Below, one piece after another: positions 27,005 to 37,547 of a stretch of DNA of 64,000 bases. This DNA is from Acidobacteriota bacterium (GTDB lineage Bacteria; Acidobacteriota; Vicinamibacteria; Marinacidobacterales; Marinacidobacteraceae): contig JAJDVI010000032.1 in assembly GCA_022826195.1 (NCBI GenBank), positions 1 to 64,000 on the forward strand, written 5' to 3'. The notes under the pieces were generated by a model. That model saw nothing but the letters and a program-made list of their open reading frames with translations. It was not told where the DNA came from and made no database searches. How positions within the stretch are numbered: position 1 is the stretch's first letter; every line of letters begins with the position of its first letter. Position numbers and translations under genes: made by a program.

Positions 27005-28039
27005 ATGGACCCTACGAGTACGGAATACGAAACCATCGAGTTTGTCGACGAGACGTTCGAGATCGAGGAAGAAGAGGAAGAGTCCGCTGAGGACGAGGCA
27101 GCCGCGGCGACCGAGCTCGGCCTCGCTCCCGACACGCACCAGACCGGTGATCTGGATTCGATGGGGCTCTATCTGCGTGACACGCACCGGCACCGTCTGC
27201 TCACCAAGAACGACGAGCAGCGCTACAGCCGGGCCATGCAGAAGGCCTGGCAGGACATCGAGAACTCCGACGATCCTTCGAACCAGGACCTCGCGGCCTT
27301 CTACAAGAACCGCGAGAAGATGATCGAGGGGAACCTGCGCCTCGTCATCTCCATCGCCAAGCAGTCCCGGGGAAAGGGACTCCCGCTGGGCGATCTCATT
27401 CAGGAAGGCAACATCGGACTCATGCAGGCGGTTCGCAAGTTCGAGCCCGAGCGGAACCTCAAGTTCTCCACCTACGCCACGTGGTGGATCCGCCAGGCGA
27501 TCTGGCGCGCGCTCTCGCAGAAGTCCCGCACCATCAAGGTCCCGATCAACAAGCTGGACCTCCATCGCAAGGCGTCCAAGGTGAGGGCGGAGCTCGAGCA
27601 GCGGTACCGGAACGATCCGGCGCGCCGCGGCAAGCGTCAGTTCCCCTCCACCGACGACGTCGCTCGCGAAATCGGCGTGCCGCCGGAGAGGCTGCGCGAC
27701 GCGCTCCGTTCGGTGCCGCAGATCGACTCGCTCGATGCGCCGCTGGTTCCCGACGGGACCCCGCGGATCCAGCTGACTCCCGATCCGGACCAGCTGAACC
27801 CGATCGAAGGCGTCACCGACGCCGAGCAGCGCCGGCACGTGCGGGATGCCATTTCGGACCTCCCCGACCGGCTGCAGCACGTGCTCAAGCGCCGCTTCGG
27901 CATTCTGGGCGGGCCGGAAGCCAACCTGGAGGAGATCGGGCGCGAGCTTCACCTCACCCGGGAGCGGGTGCGGCAGCTCGAGGCGGAAGCGCTCACCCGG
28001 CTCCGCCAGGACCCGCGCCTCCGCGTCTCCGCGAACTGA
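27005..28039 (+). CDS. Primary-type sigma-70 factor (RpoD/RpoS-like)
   Basis: This sigma factor directs RNA polymerase to housekeeping-type promoters. The 344-residue protein starts at an ATG with GGAGGG 4 nt upstream and has an acidic N-terminus (about 10-35). Region 1.2 is [21 protein letters not shown]. Region 2 runs from [21 protein letters not shown] through [19 protein letters not shown] to [18 protein letters not shown]. Region 3 is [22 protein letters not shown], and region 4 ends [23 protein letters not shown]. It lacks the long region 1.1 and non-conserved insert of large RpoD proteins, so it may be a short primary sigma or a group 2 sigma. Confidence 0.88.
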
Positions 28040-30814: not shown

Positions 30815-31300
30815 CTATCCGTTGGAGACGAAGAGCCGGCCGCCCCGCTCGGGCCCGGGCGCCCGCCGCCCCTGCCGGGCGGCGGCTTCCGAGGCGAGGG
30901 TATGGGCCCTTTCGTTTCCCGGATGGCCGGCATGACCCGGGACCCACTCGAACCGGACCCCGGGCCGCCCGGCGCGCGCCGCGGCCAGCCGCCGCCACAG
31001 GTCGGCGTTCTTGACCGGGCGGCGGTTCGCCGTCTGCCAGCCGCGCCGGACCCAGGACGGAAGCCACTGGGTGATGCCCTTGACCACGTATTGGCTGTCG
31101 CACAGCACCGTGGCCGCGGCTCCTTCCGGCACCGCTTCCACCGCCCGGATGGCGGCGGTGAGCTCCATGCGGTTGTTCGTCGTGTTCGGTTCACCCCCCG
31201 ACAGGACCCGTTCCTCTCCGGCAGCGGTCAGGATCACCGCCGCCCACCCTCCGGGCCCGGGGTTCCCGAGGCAGGAACCGTCGCACGCGATCTGCAGCAT
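30815..31300 (-). CDS. rnhA: Ribonuclease HI with Asp-to-His change at the fourth active-site position
   Basis: RNase HI degrades the RNA strand of RNA-DNA hybrids such as R-loops and Okazaki primers. The 161-residue protein carries D7 (ACDGSC), E46 (NNRMELTAA), D68 (LCDSQYV) and the flexible-loop H123 in PGHAGHPGNER. The fourth carboxylate, Asp134 in the E. coli enzyme (NERCDELA), is His133 here (NERAHTLA). From memory of mutagenesis work, D134H in E. coli RNase HI retains activity, so this enzyme is probably active. It lies 14 bp upstream of the PhzF-like gene on the same strand. A short C-terminal extension (143-161) is unusual. Confidence 0.9.
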   Translation of the reverse strand: MLQIACDGSCLGNPGPGGWAAVILTAAGEERVLSGGEPNTTNNRMELTAAIRAVEAVPEGAAATVLCDSQYVVKGITQWLPSWVRRGWQTANRRPVKNADLWRRLAAARAGRPGVRFEWVPGHAGHPGNERAHTLASEAAARQGRRAPGPERGGRLFVSNG

Positions 31301-31341: not shown

Positions 31342-31899
31342 ATGTCCTGGATTCACATGGTTCCGCCCACCGCTCCCGAGGGGCAGGCGGGGCGGCTCGG
31401 GAAGCTCTATCGGCGTCATCGCCGGCCCGACGGACTGGTGGACAACATCCTGAGGGTGTCCAGCCTGAATCCCGAGGCGCTGGAGCACCACCTGTCCCTG
31501 TATGAACACCTCATGCGGGGCGAGTCGGGCCTGAGCCTCGCCGAACGGGAACTGATCGCGGTCGCCGTTTCGGTGGTCAACGACTGCCACTATTGAATCG
31601 AGCATCACCGGAGAGGTCTTCTCCGGCTGACCCGGGATCCCGATCTGGTGGAACGCCTGCGGCGTGACCCGGAGGGCTGTCCGCTCTCGACCAGGCATCG
31701 CGCGCTCGCCGACTACGCCATCAAGCTGGCGCGGAACCCGGGGAGCCTGGCGGAAGAAGATCTCGAGCCGCTCCGCAGCGCCGGACTCTCCGACCGCGAC
31801 ATCCACGACGCGTGCGCGGTGGCCTCCTACTACTGTTTCGTGAACCGCATGGCGAACGGCCTGGGGGTGGAGCTGGAGGAGGCGGCAGCCGGCAGCTAG
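31342..31899 (+). CDS. AhpD-like/peroxidase-related selenoprotein (CxxU), TGA read as Sec
   Basis: One continuous frame of 186 codons is interrupted by a single TGA at 31594-31596 (codon 85). Both halves belong to the carboxymuconolactone decarboxylase/AhpD-like peroxidase-related family. The family redox motif is CxxC followed by two His; here it reads C82-H-Y-TGA-I-E-H88-H89, so the TGA sits exactly at the resolving Cys. The downstream half (RHRALADYAIKLARNPGSL and DACAVASYYCFVNRMANGLG) is well conserved, arguing against decay. A SECIS-like hairpin follows (31608-31626). The predicted product is a 185-residue thiol/selenol peroxidase or disulfide reductase. Its stop overlaps the convergent ABC-F gene by 4 bp. 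SelA-D genes are not in the window. Confidence 0.85.
31608..31626 (+). promoter_or_regulatory. Candidate bacterial SECIS hairpin
   Basis: CCGGAGA (31608-31614) pairs perfectly with TCTCCGG (31620-31626) around the loop GGTCT. The loop begins 18 nt after the TGA, inside the 16-37 nt window known for bacterial SECIS elements, and has G in the first loop positions. As I recall it, the E. coli fdhF SECIS also presents GGUCU in its apical loop at nearly the same distance. It would recruit SelB with Sec-tRNA while the sequence still encodes amino acids. Confidence 0.8.
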
Positions 31900-33830
31900 G
31901 GGTTGCCGGCGCCCTGCTGCACCGCGGCGTCGAGGCGTTCGAGTTCCTCGTAGAGCGCCGGCAGCCGGCCTTTCAGGTCCTCGTAGGTGGCCGTGACCTT
32001 GCGGGAACCCTCGCGGTCGCCGAAGAAACCGGGCGCCGCCATCCGCGCTTCCAGGCTTTCGACGGCGGCCTCGGTGTCCGCGATCGCCTCGAACACCTCG
32101 CGCCACTCGCGCCGCAGCTGCCGCAGCCGGTTTTTCCCGGGCGGCCGGCGCGCGCCGGCCTTGCCCGCCTCTCTCGCGCGTCGCTGCGGCCGTTTCGCCG
32201 CCGCCGGTGGGGACGCCGGGGAAGCGGCCACGCCGGGCTCCGGGGGGCTGAGCCTGGCCAGGTAGTCCGAGTAGTTGCCCCAGTAGAGAGCCGCGCCGCC
32301 CCCGCCGATCGCGGCGACCCGGGTGGCCAGGGCATCCATGAAATAGCGGTCGTGGGCGACGAACACGATCGTGCCCTGGTAGTTCGAAAGGGCGTTCAGC
32401 AACGCCCGCTTGGCGTCGAGGTCGAGATGGTTGGTCGGCTCGTCGAGGAGGAGGAGGTTCGCGGGACGGAGGAACAGGCGGGCCAGCGCCAGCCGGCTTC
32501 GTTCGCCGCCGGAGAGGACCGCGGTCTTCTTCTCCACGGTGCCTCCCGAGAACAGGAAGGCGCCCAGGATGTTGCGGATCTCCGGCAGCATGGCGAGCGG
32601 CGCCGCGTCGGCCATGGTCTCGCGGACCGTGCGGTCCGGGTCGAGATCGTGCCGGTCCGGCCCGTAGTAGGCGATCCGGACGTTGTGGCCCAGCTCCCGA
32701 TGCCCGGAGTCCAAGCTGGCTTCACCGGCGATCAGCCGGATGAGGGTGGACTTCCCGGCGCCGTTCCGCCCGACGAGCGCGAGCCGCTGGCCTCGTTCCA
32801 CGACGAGGTCCACGTCGCGGAAGACCTCGTTCGTTCCGAAGGCCTTGGCGGCGGCGGAGAGCGTCACCAGAACCCGCCCCGAACGCGGCGGATGCGGGAG
32901 GCGGAGGGCCACCCGCCGGGGCTCCGGCGGCACTTCGATCCGCTCGACCTTCTCGAGCATGCGGACCCGGCTCTGGACCTGCCGCGCGCGGCTGGCCTGG
33001 TAGCGGAACCGGTTGATGAAGCGTTCGGTCCGCTCGATCTCGGCGGCCTGCTCGGCGGCGCGCTTGCGCAGGTCGGCGATCTCGGCGGCCCGCTGGGTCT
33101 CGTAGCGGCTGTAGGTGCCCGGGTAGTTGCCGAGCCGGCCCAGGCCGATCTCGGTGATCCGGGTCACCACCGAGTCGAGGAAGTAGCGGTCGTGGGCGAC
33201 CAGCACCAGGCCGCCGCGGTGACGGGCCAGGAAGCCGAGCAACCAGGTGCGGGCCTCGATGTCCAGGTAGTTCGTGGGCTCGTCGAGCAGGACGAGGTCG
33301 TTCGCCTCGACGAGCAGCTTGGCGAGCGCGATGCGCATCTGCCAGCCCTGGCTGAAGGTCTCCACCGGGCGCTCCTGGTCCCCGGCGGCGAATCCCAGGC
33401 CGGAGAGGACCTCGCTGATGCGGGTGTCCATCTCGTACCCGCCGCGGCGCTGCCACTCCTCTTCCAGTTCGCCGTAGCGGGCGACGAGCTCGGGCTGGTC
33501 CGGGGCGTCCGCGAGCCGTTCCGCCACGTCCTCCTGTTCGCGCCGCAGCCGGAGCAGGTCGGCGAAGGCGGTGCGCACCTCCCCGGAAACGGTGCGGCCC
33601 TCGAGCCGCAGCCCCTCCTGGGGGAGGTAGCCCACGCGCTTCCGCCTGGCCAGCACGACCTTTCCGGCGTCGGCGGGGACCAGCCCCGCGAGGATCTTCA
33701 GGAGCGTGGTCTTGCCGGATCCGTTCGGCCCGACGAGACCGACGCGGTCGCCGTCGCCGACCTGCCAGGAGACATCGCGGAGCAGGACCTGTTCTCCGTA
33801 GGCCTTGGAGGCCTCGACGAGCTGGATCAT
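31896..33830 (-). CDS. ABC-F family ATP-binding protein (Uup/EttA-like)
   Basis: ABC-F proteins have two ATPase domains and no membrane helices. They act on the ribosome to resolve stalled or slow translation states, and some give antibiotic protection. From the ATG at 33830 the product has 644 residues. Domain 1 has GPNGSGKTT, FSQGWQMRIALAKLL and LLDEPTNYLDIEA. A helical linker follows (RAAEIADLRKRAAEQAAEIE). Domain 2 has GRNGAGKST, LSGGERSRLALARL and LLLDEPTNHLDLDAKRA. The C-terminus is a basic linker plus a coiled coil (about 560-640), as in Uup/YheS. A longer upstream frame exists but is antisense to the next gene. Confidence 0.93.
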   Translation of the reverse strand: MIQLVEASKAYGEQVLLRDVSWQVGDGDRVGLVGPNGSGKTTLLKILAGLVPADAGKVVLARRKRVGYLPQEGLRLEGRTVSGEVRTAFADLLRLRREQEDVAERLADAPDQPELVARYGELEEEWQRRGGYEMDTRISEVLSGLGFAAGDQERPVETFSQGWQMRIALAKLLVEANDLVLLDEPTNYLDIEARTWLLGFLARHRGGLVLVAHDRYFLDSVVTRITEIGLGRLGNYPGTYSRYETQRAAEIADLRKRAAEQAAEIERTERFINRFRYQASRARQVQSRVRMLEKVERIEVPPEPRRVALRLPHPPRSGRVLVTLSAAAKAFGTNEVFRDVDLVVERGQRLALVGRNGAGKSTLIRLIAGEASLDSGHRELGHNVRIAYYGPDRHDLDPDRTVRETMADAAPLAMLPEIRNILGAFLFSGGTVEKKTAVLSGGERSRLALARLFLRPANLLLLDEPTNHLDLDAKRALLNALSNYQGTIVFVAHDRYFMDALATRVAAIGGGGAALYWGNYSDYLARLSPPEPGVAASPASPPAAAKRPQRRAREAGKAGARRPPGKNRLRQLRREWREVFEAIADTEAAVESLEARMAAPGFFGDREGSRKVTATYEDLKGRLPALYEELERLDAAVQQGAGNP

Positions 33831-33950: not shown

Positions 33951-36900
33951 ATGTTTCGGTGCCCGAACCCCCGCCTCCGGCCGCTCCTGCCGCTCGCGGC
34001 CGCGGTCGTCCTGTCGTCGGCCGGCGCACGGACGCCCCAACCCGAGGCGGACGCCGGGATGAGCCGCGGGGTGGCGCTGCTCGAGCAGTTCCGGTTCTCC
34101 GACGCCGCCGCCGAGTTCGCGCGAGTGGTGGAGCTCCGGCCCGAGTCGGCGGCCGCCCACGTGAATCTCGGAATCGCCTGGTTCAACGAGCGCGATTTCC
34201 TCGCCGCCCGCGCTTCCTTCGCGCGAGCCCTCGAACTCGATCCCGGCGGGCTTCACGCGCGCTACAACCTGGGTCTCATCGAGAAGCTCGAGGGCAACAC
34301 CGACGCGGCGCTCGCCGCCTTCCGGCAGGTCGCCGAAGCCGACCCCGACGACGCGATGACGCAGTACTACCTGGGCGCCGCCTACGCCGCGGTCGGCCGG
34401 CTCGAGGAGGCGGAGACCGCCCTGCGCACCGCCATCCAGCTCCAGCCGGAGCACGAGTCCGCCCACTTCAGCCTGGGGAACGTCCTCGTGCGGGCGGGCC
34501 GCCGGGAGGAGGGCCGCGCCCAGTTGATGCGGTTCCAGGAACTGAAGAACAGCTTCTCCGGGGGCGGAGTTTCCGCCGGGCTCCAGTACACCGAGCTCGG
34601 GCCGTACGCGGAGGCCGTCGAAGCGCGTCCGGTGTCGCTGCACGGCGCCCAGGACGAACCCGCATCAACAGGTGAGGTCCGTTTTTCGGAGGCAACCACG
34701 GAATGGAATCTGGCGCTGCCGGCCGCCGGTGCGCCGCCCGATCCTCCGGCGACGCTGAGAGCAGAGGACTACTCCGCCGACTGGGTGGCGGCGAACGTGC
34801 TGCCGCAACTCGGCTCGGGCGTCGCCATCCGTGATCTGGACGGAGACGGCCGGCCGGAGATCCTCCTGGTGCGGGACGGGAGGGTGGCCCTGTTCCGAAA
34901 CACCGGCGACGGCTTCGAGGCCTGGACGGACTCCGGGCTCGAGACGGACGGGGCGGTCAGCGTGACCGTCGGCGACGTGGATCTCGACGGCGATCCCGAC
35001 CTCTACGCGGCGGGAGCCGGCCCGAACGCGCTCTTCTGGAACCGGTCGGGTGAGCCCGGGGCGCTCTTCGCCCGGGCGGAGGCATCGGGAGCCGAGGGGG
35101 ATGACCTTTCGGTGGGCGCCACCTTCGCGGACTTCGATCACGACGGCGACCTCGACATCCAGGTCTCCAACTACGCCCCCGCTTCCCTCGGGGCGTCCGC
35201 TTCCATGCCGGAGGTTCTCCGCGTGCCGGACGACCTTCCGGGGGCGCCGAACCGTCTCTACCGGAACAACGGGGACGGCAGCTTCACGGACGTCGCCGGG
35301 GAGACCCGGACGGACGGCGGGGCGCGGCGCAGTCTCTTCGCGCTGTTCTCCGACTGGGACGACGACCGCGACGTGGACTTCCTGGTGGTGAACGACGGCA
35401 GCCCGGTGCAGGTCTTCTCGAACGATCGGATCGGAACGTTCACCGAGAGCTCGGAGGCCTGGGGCGTCGAGACCGCCACCCGGATGCGGGGAGCGGCGGC
35501 CGCCGACTACGACCGGGACGGCTTCTTCGACCTGCTGCTCGCGGCCGAGGGGGGCGCGCTGAACATGCTGCTCCGGGGATCCGGACCCGGCGGGTTCTCT
35601 CCGGACGTCGGGTCCCCCTTCCTGCTGCGCGCCGGCGTCCCCGGGGCCCGCTACGGAGTCTCCTTCGTCGATGCCGACCACGACATGGACCTGGACCTCC
35701 TCATGGCCACCTCCGGGGCCGAGGGGCCGCTCACCCTCTACGAGAACTCCCCCGGCGGGTTCTCACGCGCGGGAGCGGTCTCCGCCGGGCTGGACTCCGG
35801 CGAGGAGCCGCGGGCGCTCGCGACCGGGGACCTCGACGGTGATGGAGATCTCGACGCCGTGATCGGCACCACGCGGGGCCGCATCTTCGCCTTCCGCAAC
35901 GACCGGACGGGGGCCGGCAACTGGATGGCGGTCCGTCCGCGGGGCCTGCGCAGCAACCTGGACGGGGTCGGCGCCAAGATCGAGGTCCGGGTCGCCGGGG
36001 TGAGCCAGCGGCGTCAGGTGCGGACCACCTCGGGGTACCTCTCGCAGAGCGATCTTCCCGTCCACTTTGGGCTGGGAGACGCGCTCGCGGCCGACTACGT
36101 CCGTTTTCTCTGGCCGGGAGGGGTGAAACAGGTCGAACTGGACGTGCCGGCGCTCGCCGTGGCGTCCGTCGAGGAGCTGAACCGGAAGGGCACCTCCTGC
36201 CCCGTCCTCTACGCCTGGGACGGCCAGCGGATTCGCTTCGTCACCGATTTCCTGGGCGGCAGCGCGCTCGGGAACCTCCTCGCTCCCGGCGCCTACAACT
36301 ATCCGGACACCGCGGAAGTCGTGAAGATGGAAGCGTTTCCGCTCGTTCCCCGGGACGGGGCCTACGAGATGCGCTGGGTGAACCAGCTCGAGGAGGTCAT
36401 CTTCTACGACCGGGCGGCCCTCTGGGTGGTGGACCATCCAGAAGACGTGGACGTGTTTCCGCGGGAACGCCTGATGCCGGGCCCTCCGTACCCCGACCCG
36501 GGTCTGATCGCGGTCCGGAACCGGCGGCCTCCGTCCCGGGCGTCGTCTTCGACGGCCGCGGGGAAGCGGGAGGTGACCGCGGCGCTCGCCCGGGTGGACC
36601 GCGTCTACGTCGACGACTTCGCGCTCCTCCCCTTCAAGGGATACGCGGAGACCCACGACCTGACCCTCACGTTCGACGGGGTGCGCCCCGGCGTCCCCCA
36701 GGTCCTCCTCCTCTACGGCTGGGTGGATTACGCCGACTCGAGTTCCAACCTTGCCGCTTCCCACGCCGGGGTCGGAGCCCAGCCGCCGATCCTGGAGATT
36801 GCCGACGGCGACGGGTTCCGCATCGCCACCGACCGGATGGGATTCCCGGCGGGCCTGCCCAAGACGATGGTGGTGCCCCTCGCGGACGTCCCGGTCGAGA

Positions 36901-37547
36901 GCGGGCGGCCGCTCCGGATCCGGACCAACATGCGCATCTACTGGGACCGGATCGAGCTCGCCGAGGTCGCCGACGTTCCCGTTCAGGAGTGGCGGCTCGA
37001 CGCCCAGACGGCGGAGTTCGGTTTTGCCGGGTATCCCGAACCGCATCGGCCGCGCGGGATCCCGCCCACCGAGTACCGCTACGGAACGCGCGCGGCGCGG
37101 GACATCTGGGGAGCCCACGAGGGGGAATACACGAGGCACGGCGACGTGCGGCCCCTCCTCGACGCGATCGACGACCGCTACGTCATCGCCCGGCACGGCG
37201 ACGAGCTGCGGCTTCGTTTCGACGCGCGGCAGGTCCCGCCGCCGGCCCCGGGGACCCGGCGTTCGTTCTTCGCGTTCGCCGACGGTTTCGGCAAGGACAT
37301 GGACCTGAACTCCGCCCGGCCGCACACCATCGAGCCGCTGCCGTTCCACGGGATGCCGAGCTATCCCTATCCCCCGGACGCCTATCCGGACACTGAGGAG
37401 CTGGCCCGCTGGCGCGCCGAGTACAACACCCGGCGGATCGGCCCGGAGGGGCGGCACGGGTTCCTCGACGACGGCGTACCGCCGGTCGAGACGACCGGGG
37501 AGCCGGAGGCTGCCGTGGCCGGCCGGGAGCGGCGGCGCGAGCGTTAG
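33951..37547 (+). CDS. TPR + FG-GAP/VCBS propeller + ASPIC/UnbV (CRTAC-type) protein
   Basis: The ATG at 33951 starts a 1198-residue exported protein with a signal (PLLPLAAAVVLSSAGA). Residues about 35-200 are tetratricopeptide repeats (AAHVNLGIAWFNERDF, ARYNLGLIEKLEGN, TQYYLGAAYAAVGRLEEAE). Then come repeated calcium-binding VCBS/FG-GAP blades (IRDLDGDGRPEILLVRDG, GDVDLDGDPDLYAAG, FADFDHDGDLDIQVSN, GDLDGDGDLDAVIG). An ASPIC/UnbV domain follows at about 660-740 (NWMAVRPRG, GVGAKIEV, DYVRFLWPGGVKQ). About 450 further residues show no family I recognise. Such proteins occur in Acidobacteria, Planctomycetes and Gemmatimonadota; their function is unknown, probably surface binding. The next gene starts 2 bp after its stop. 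Confidence 0.85.
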   Translation: MFRCPNPRLRPLLPLAAAVVLSSAGARTPQPEADAGMSRGVALLEQFRFSDAAAEFARVVELRPESAAAHVNLGIAWFNERDFLAARASFARALELDPGGLHARYNLGLIEKLEGNTDAALAAFRQVAEADPDDAMTQYYLGAAYAAVGRLEEAETALRTAIQLQPEHESAHFSLGNVLVRAGRREEGRAQLMRFQELKNSFSGGGVSAGLQYTELGPYAEAVEARPVSLHGAQDEPASTGEVRFSEATTEWNLALPAAGAPPDPPATLRAEDYSADWVAANVLPQLGSGVAIRDLDGDGRPEILLVRDGRVALFRNTGDGFEAWTDSGLETDGAVSVTVGDVDLDGDPDLYAAGAGPNALFWNRSGEPGALFARAEASGAEGDDLSVGATFADFDHDGDLDIQVSNYAPASLGASASMPEVLRVPDDLPGAPNRLYRNNGDGSFTDVAGETRTDGGARRSLFALFSDWDDDRDVDFLVVNDGSPVQVFSNDRIGTFTESSEAWGVETATRMRGAAAADYDRDGFFDLLLAAEGGALNMLLRGSGPGGFSPDVGSPFLLRAGVPGARYGVSFVDADHDMDLDLLMATSGAEGPLTLYENSPGGFSRAGAVSAGLDSGEEPRALATGDLDGDGDLDAVIGTTRGRIFAFRNDRTGAGNWMAVRPRGLRSNLDGVGAKIEVRVAGVSQRRQVRTTSGYLSQSDLPVHFGLGDALAADYVRFLWPGGVKQVELDVPALAVASVEELNRKGTSCPVLYAWDGQRIRFVTDFLGGSALGNLLAPGAYNYPDTAEVVKMEAFPLVPRDGAYEMRWVNQLEEVIFYDRAALWVVDHPEDVDVFPRERLMPGPPYPDPGLIAVRNRRPPSRASSSTAAGKREVTAALARVDRVYVDDFALLPFKGYAETHDLTLTFDGVRPGVPQVLLLYGWVDYADSSSNLAASHAGVGAQPPILEIADGDGFRIATDRMGFPAGLPKTMVVPLADVPVESGRPLRIRTNMRIYWDRIELAEVADVPVQEWRLDAQTAEFGFAGYPEPHRPRGIPPTEYRYGTRAARDIWGAHEGEYTRHGDVRPLLDAIDDRYVIARHGDELRLRFDARQVPPPAPGTRRSFFAFADGFGKDMDLNSARPHTIEPLPFHGMPSYPYPPDAYPDTEELARWRAEYNTRRIGPEGRHGFLDDGVPPVETTGEPEAAVAGRERRRER

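Follow-up and report, generated by a model that had tools for sequence, protein, structure and literature searches.

In an AhpD-like gene from an Acidobacteriota bacterium, an in-frame UGA very probably codes for selenocysteine through a hairpin just behind it

Introduction

In the window, by which we mean the whole 64,000-nucleotide stretch of DNA that was analyzed, a mechanical list of open reading frames (ORFs) holds two neighboring frames on the plus strand, 31342-31596 and 31648-31899 (the latter GTG started), the first of which closes with a TGA codon. An earlier note, made from the letters alone, had read the sequence behind this codon as a bacterial SECIS hairpin. The locus thus raises the question of whether the TGA ends a gene or is a codon for selenocysteine (Sec) inside a gene that plain ORF calling has split in two. 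Judged from comparison of homologous sequences, the in-frame UGA of this AhpD-like gene is very probably read as Sec via the hairpin just behind it.

Results

Taking the UGA (31594-31596, plus strand) as a residue yielded a protein of 185 amino acids, encoded by positions 31342-31899 of the plus strand, with the motif NDCHYU (CHYU, a CxxU motif) and a putative Sec at residue 85. The protein matched PF02627 with 60.7 bits (cutoff, 23) and, with Sec read as Cys, the TIGR01926 peroxid_rel model with 141.2 bits over residues 22 to 177 (curated cutoff, 81.8); the joined frames and these family matches define a probable AhpD-like/CMD (TIGR01926) selenoprotein gene. PDB entry 3c1l aligned over residues 26 to 175, across the UGA and with Cys at residue 85, and a second solved relative, 2pfx, likewise spanned the UGA with Cys at that residue. 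These matches to solved structures settle the predicted AhpD-like fold of the 185-residue protein. The residues E70, C82, H83, Y84, residue 85 (C/U), and H89 were invariant in 15/15 aligned relatives, and the codon of Cys82, the first residue of the CxxU motif, lies at 31585-31587 (plus strand). Mycobacterial AhpD has the same spacing of Glu, Cys, Cys, and His, which we take to be the catalytic set (E70, C82, C/U85, and H89).

The genes on either side lie outside the proposed mechanism. An RNase HI gene (rnhA; 30815-31300, minus strand), divergent and kept in the family, and an ABC-F type ATPase gene (31896-33827, minus strand), convergent and with a 4-nucleotide overlap, were identified by family search and locus comparison. 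Both phzF and rnhA adjoin the selenoprotein gene in 10/10 family loci (L016 to L025), and the convergent ABC-F gene was present at nine of the ten; in the tenth lineage (L125), ABC-F is found elsewhere in the locus. By eye, an ORF at 27005-28039 (plus strand) resembles a sigma-70 family RNA polymerase sigma factor, and the translation of a long frame at about 33960-37547 (plus strand) contains TPR-like and FG-GAP/ASPIC-like stretches; the mechanical ORF of this latter frame is given too early a start, at 31812, which lies within the selenoprotein gene. Two families, NF041238 (AhpD_rel_CFYUT) and NF041047 (GSU3128), are AhpD-related selenoprotein families with CxxU in a 2026 review (PMC13188914), and membership in either was rejected: the window protein scored 45.2 bits against a cutoff of 175 for NF041238 (34.2 bits by genome search) and 14.7 bits against a cutoff of 110 for NF041047.

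That the TGA might be a genuine stop codon or an error of sequencing, with a decaying or separate ORF downstream, agrees with the output of the ORF caller, which stops the gene at 31596 and opens its GTG-started frame at 31648. Against this stands the conservation of the codon. TGA was found in the matches in the host genome, seven other genomes of the genus, and both other genomes of the family (10/10), with the protein conserved on both sides of it. In the class set, which leaves aside L070 and L071 (no match over codon 85) and nine weak or partial places, 99 distinct homologues carried TGA (59), TGC (35), AGC (3), AGT (1), or GGC (1) at codon 85. In a named genome collection, the best 80 of 330 relatives had TGA at the same codon in 79 cases and TGT in one, a proportion that is no census because the pattern used for the scan was built from aligned UGA proteins, with Cys substituted for Sec, and only the best 80 of 330 are counted. 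The nearest named records among these 80 were Acidobacteria metagenome-assembled genomes (85 to 91%) and a Vicinamibacteraceae metagenome-assembled genome (74%), and further records were named as Gemmatimonadota, Calditrichia, KSB1, Chloroflexi, Planctomycetota, Marinimicrobia, and others. Because the UGA is common to many phyla, error or decay is an unlikely source, and we regard this reading as extremely improbable.

In four homologues Ser replaces Sec/Cys at residue 85 (CxxS): L056, L057, and L041 (AGC) and L109 (AGT). None of the four has a SECIS-like stem at the usual place, and two CxxS homologues sit in genomes (G010 and G012) that also hold UGA paralogues. The single non-UGA member of the 80 named loci, L166 (TGT; record titled Thaumarchaeota archaeon), has no stem of the bacterial type where one usually lies. 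The host genome itself carries a distant Cys-type paralogue (L065, G000:C21:4352-4834; 27 to 28% identity). A second TGA was flagged in some matches: for L082 it falls at query residue 181, at the gene end, and for L024, L039, L080, and L084 none lies inside the alignment. These second TGAs are taken as ordinary gene ends.

The host genome contains selA, selB, selD, and tRNA-Sec. SelA scored 493.5 bits (cutoff, 267.9), SelB 300.4 bits, or 321.8 bits with its C-terminal piece (curated cutoff, 242.25), and SelD 245.6 bits (cutoff, 125), while the tRNA-Sec, with the anticodon UCA, scored 69.7 bits, above the gathering score. At an E value of 1e-30, SelA was detected in 152/193 genomes of the class, 147 of them above the cutoff; it was present in 50/52 class genomes with a UGA homologue versus 102/141 without (Fisher P of 0.00012, relatedness ignored). 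In neither G018 (contig C25) nor G165 (contig C83), which both carry a UGA-type gene, was SelA found; incomplete sequence or faulty binning may be the reason, G165 being 85% complete and the G018 copy standing at a contig start. Cys is the usual exchange for Sec, and 35/40 non-UGA homologues of the class set have Cys at residue 85. Both this and the full Sec machinery, including tRNA-Sec(UCA), speak against decoding of the UGA by some other tRNA, such as a suppressor that carries Trp or Cys, an explanation to which, on this evidence, we give next to no credence.

Starting 12 nucleotides after the UGA, the window has the 5' arm CCGGAGA (31608-31614; nucleotides 12 to 18 after the UGA), the apical loop GGUCU (31615-31619; nucleotides 19 to 23), and the 3' arm UCUCCGG (31620-31626; nucleotides 24 to 30), all on the plus strand and visible in sequence and fold, the arms also in homologue pairs. 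The sequence bears out the description in the earlier note of a perfect 7-bp stem with a GGTCT loop behind the TGA, with 18 nucleotides between the TGA and the loop. The likeness to E. coli fdhF that the note gave was likewise confirmed: in E. coli K-12 the GGTCT begins 19 nucleotides after TGA codon 140, as it does here. The hairpin also falls within all limits of the bSECIS model as given in a figure legend of the 2026 review (PMC13188914, Fig. 2: a loop of 3 to 9 nucleotides with G in its first two positions, mostly G[G/U], a stem of 4 to 16 bp, a UGA-loop spacing of 16 to 37 nucleotides, and an energy of at most -7.5 kcal/mol), with its 5-nucleotide loop GGUCU, 7-bp stem, 18-nucleotide spacing, and -13.7 kcal/mol. 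No contradiction with this bSECISearch consensus was found. An Rfam search of the window at gathering thresholds gave no match.

Folding energy alone is weak evidence for the hairpin, since shuffle z-scores were modest and a different fold appeared in a longer context. RNAfold predicted for the 40 nucleotides from the TGA the 7-bp hairpin, lengthened below a bulged C by three further pairs (-13.7 kcal/mol), with a z-score of -1.68 (13/200 shuffles as good); the z-scores were -0.38 at 50 and -1.22 at 69 nucleotides, and at 69 nucleotides the minimum-energy structure was a different one. When the protein was held fixed, 502/40000 synonymous recodings drawn from the codon usage of the gene and 221/40000 drawn uniformly reached the observed hairpin score, so that the hairpin in this single sequence stands out at roughly the 1% level. 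Those 502 recodings and the weak energy z-scores would suit an account in which the UGA is Sec and the hairpin is a by-product of protein and codon bias rather than the target of SelB. It is the comparative evidence, not energy, that makes the hairpin convincing.

For the comparison, 179 rows (99 and 80) were reduced to 126 UGA and 41 other sequences after two rows, L079 with an N and L058 on account of its shortness, and ten duplicates had been removed. Stems were sought under the published model, with a loop of 3 to 9 nucleotides that has G among its first two bases and a spacing of 16 to 37 nucleotides. Stems of 6 bp or more, at a spacing of 16 to 19 nucleotides, were present in 90/126 UGA sequences versus 0/41 Cys/Ser/Gly sequences, a difference that speaks against a by-product of protein and codon bias. 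With stems of at least 5 bp at the same spacing, the counts were 109/125 UGA rows used in the tree versus 1/41 others, and at any allowed spacing 124/126 versus 20/41. Thus, the expectations raised in the earlier note, that orthologues with TGA should have the hairpin and that Cys-type orthologues should lack an equal stem, were both borne out. The hairpin excess over synonymous recodings had a mean z of 1.25 in UGA sequences (37/126 at P of ≤0.05) and 0.05 in non-UGA sequences (2/41 at P of ≤0.05). On the homologue tree the Sec label needs nine changes; in five supported independent pairs the hairpin went with Sec in three to five and never the opposite way, five pairs being too few to reach 0.05.

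Within the ten family genes, rare codons are placed exactly in the stem and loop, a further point against a mere by-product. AGA stood at codon 91 in 7/10 genes and at 0/180 Arg codons outside codons 86 to 95; GGT stood at codon 92 in 10/10 genes versus 6/112 Gly codons elsewhere, and CTT at codon 93 in 6/10 versus 5/230 Leu codons elsewhere. The top pair of the stem was A-U in six genes, G-C in three, and broken in L019 (A18 opposite G24). The conservation of synonymous sites proposed as a check gave a divided answer: the synonymous difference was lowered to 0.152 in codons 89 to 95, versus 0.287 outside codons 86 to 95, but other windows of the gene were lower still. As sole proof it was therefore rejected, although it is supportive; the rare synonymous codons and the A-U/G-C/C-G exchanges do lend the stem support.

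We described the position of each stem by its register, the sum of the paired positions with nucleotides counted after the UGA, which is 42 in the family of the window. In the 124 UGA sequences whose stems reached 5 bp or more, the registers were 38 (65 sequences), 42 (17), 55 (14), 41 (9), 39 (8), and 40 (8), with one sequence each at 43, 47, and 62. The register followed the residues behind Sec, with G-A-G-L-R mostly in 38, R-R-G-L or G-R-G-L in 42, G-E-G-L-L in 40 or 41, A-A-V-A-A in 39, and D-L-R-A-E in 55. Base pairs were exchanged on both sides in register 38 (14-24, G-C/C-G), register 42 (16-26, A-U/C-G; 18-24, G-C/A-U/C-G), and register 55 (21-34, C-G/U-A; 18-37, C-G/G-C), and the two pairs of register 42 supply compensatory changes in the TGA set, which the earlier note had named as support. 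Position 19 was G in 109/117 distinct UGA sequences versus 17/41 others.

The pairing percentages within a register are biased because registers were assigned by best stem; a class of 66 UGA sequences defined by motif avoids this bias. In these 66, pairs 12 to 16 of register 38 were formed in 97.3% of cells, compared with 21 to 56% for the same pairs slid through nine registers. The same pairs were formed in 66% of cells in ten Cys/Ser homologues with L-R there and in 43% in all 41 non-UGA sequences. On a tree built without residues 86 to 97, at least 16 register changes were needed, a number that is soft because some sequences form several stems and many branches are weak. The hairpin reading of the earlier note was upheld with a qualification: outside the family of the window the stem usually lies in other registers, and a test of the single stem would for that reason understate the evidence. 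Given that both partners of base pairs are exchanged and that the stem re-forms elsewhere when the amino acids change, we consider it very unlikely that the hairpin is a by-product; read from these homologues, it is almost certainly a true bacterial SECIS, set in a gene of an already known selenoprotein family.

Discussion

The hairpin, the conserved UGA, the continuation of the frame through the remainder of the family fold, the genomic Sec machinery, and the covariation were all seen directly. Under the mechanism that we propose, a ribosome arriving at the UGA (31594-31596) would meet SelB, loaded with Sec-tRNA-Sec and bound to the GG(U) at the apex of the hairpin ahead; SelB would then deliver Sec at the UGA, and the release factor would be outcompeted. 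The product would be a 185-residue AhpD-like thiol/selenol peroxidase with C82-H-Y-U85 as its presumed redox pair.

AhpD-like CxxU selenoproteins are on record, so that the gene in the window joins an already known selenoprotein family. An "AhpD-like protein TIGR01926 CxxU" is named among the selenoproteins of the 2026 review (PMC13188914), AhpD-like CxxU selenoproteins are included in the Sargasso Sea selenoproteome (PMC1088965) and reported from Global Ocean Sampling data (PMC2398784), and selenoproteins of Acidobacteria are already recorded (PMC1794560). The known TIGR01926 CxxU selenoproteins share with the window protein the family model and the CxxU motif; the gene in the window differs in its Acidobacteriota lineage, its R-R-G-L-L-R version, its register of 42, and its GGUCU loop. 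The SECIS of E. coli fdhF has GGUCU at nucleotides 19 to 23 after the UGA, identical to the window in bases and spacing, but belongs to an unrelated protein and has a different stem, which is interrupted in the RNAfold prediction, whereas the stem in the window has seven perfect pairs.

The less ordinary part of the finding, which we have not met in print, is the rebuilding of the register around nearly fixed loop bases, with the loop G mostly kept at nucleotides 18 to 20; a keyword search of the open-access literature found no description of shifting SECIS registers, a result that does not show absence from print. On balance, we favor the view that the SECIS of the TIGR01926-type family is a movable hairpin, with a loop G/GG(U) about 17 to 21 nucleotides after the UGA and a stem rebuilt in at least five registers (38 to 42, plus 55, with a loop near nucleotide 25) as the residues behind Sec change. 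If this is true, SelB in these bacteria would read how far the loop G stands from the UGA and whether a helix is present, and the exact sequence and place of the stem would matter little to it.

Overall, a gene split by plain ORF calling is put right, and a probable selenoprotein with a textbook SECIS is added to a lineage of Acidobacteriota that metagenome-assembled genomes have made known. The 126 UGA homologues across many phyla amount to a natural experiment on the requirements of SelB, in which the loop G and its spacing are mostly kept and the stem varies in sequence and register, and such knowledge would aid SECIS predictors and the engineering of Sec insertion.
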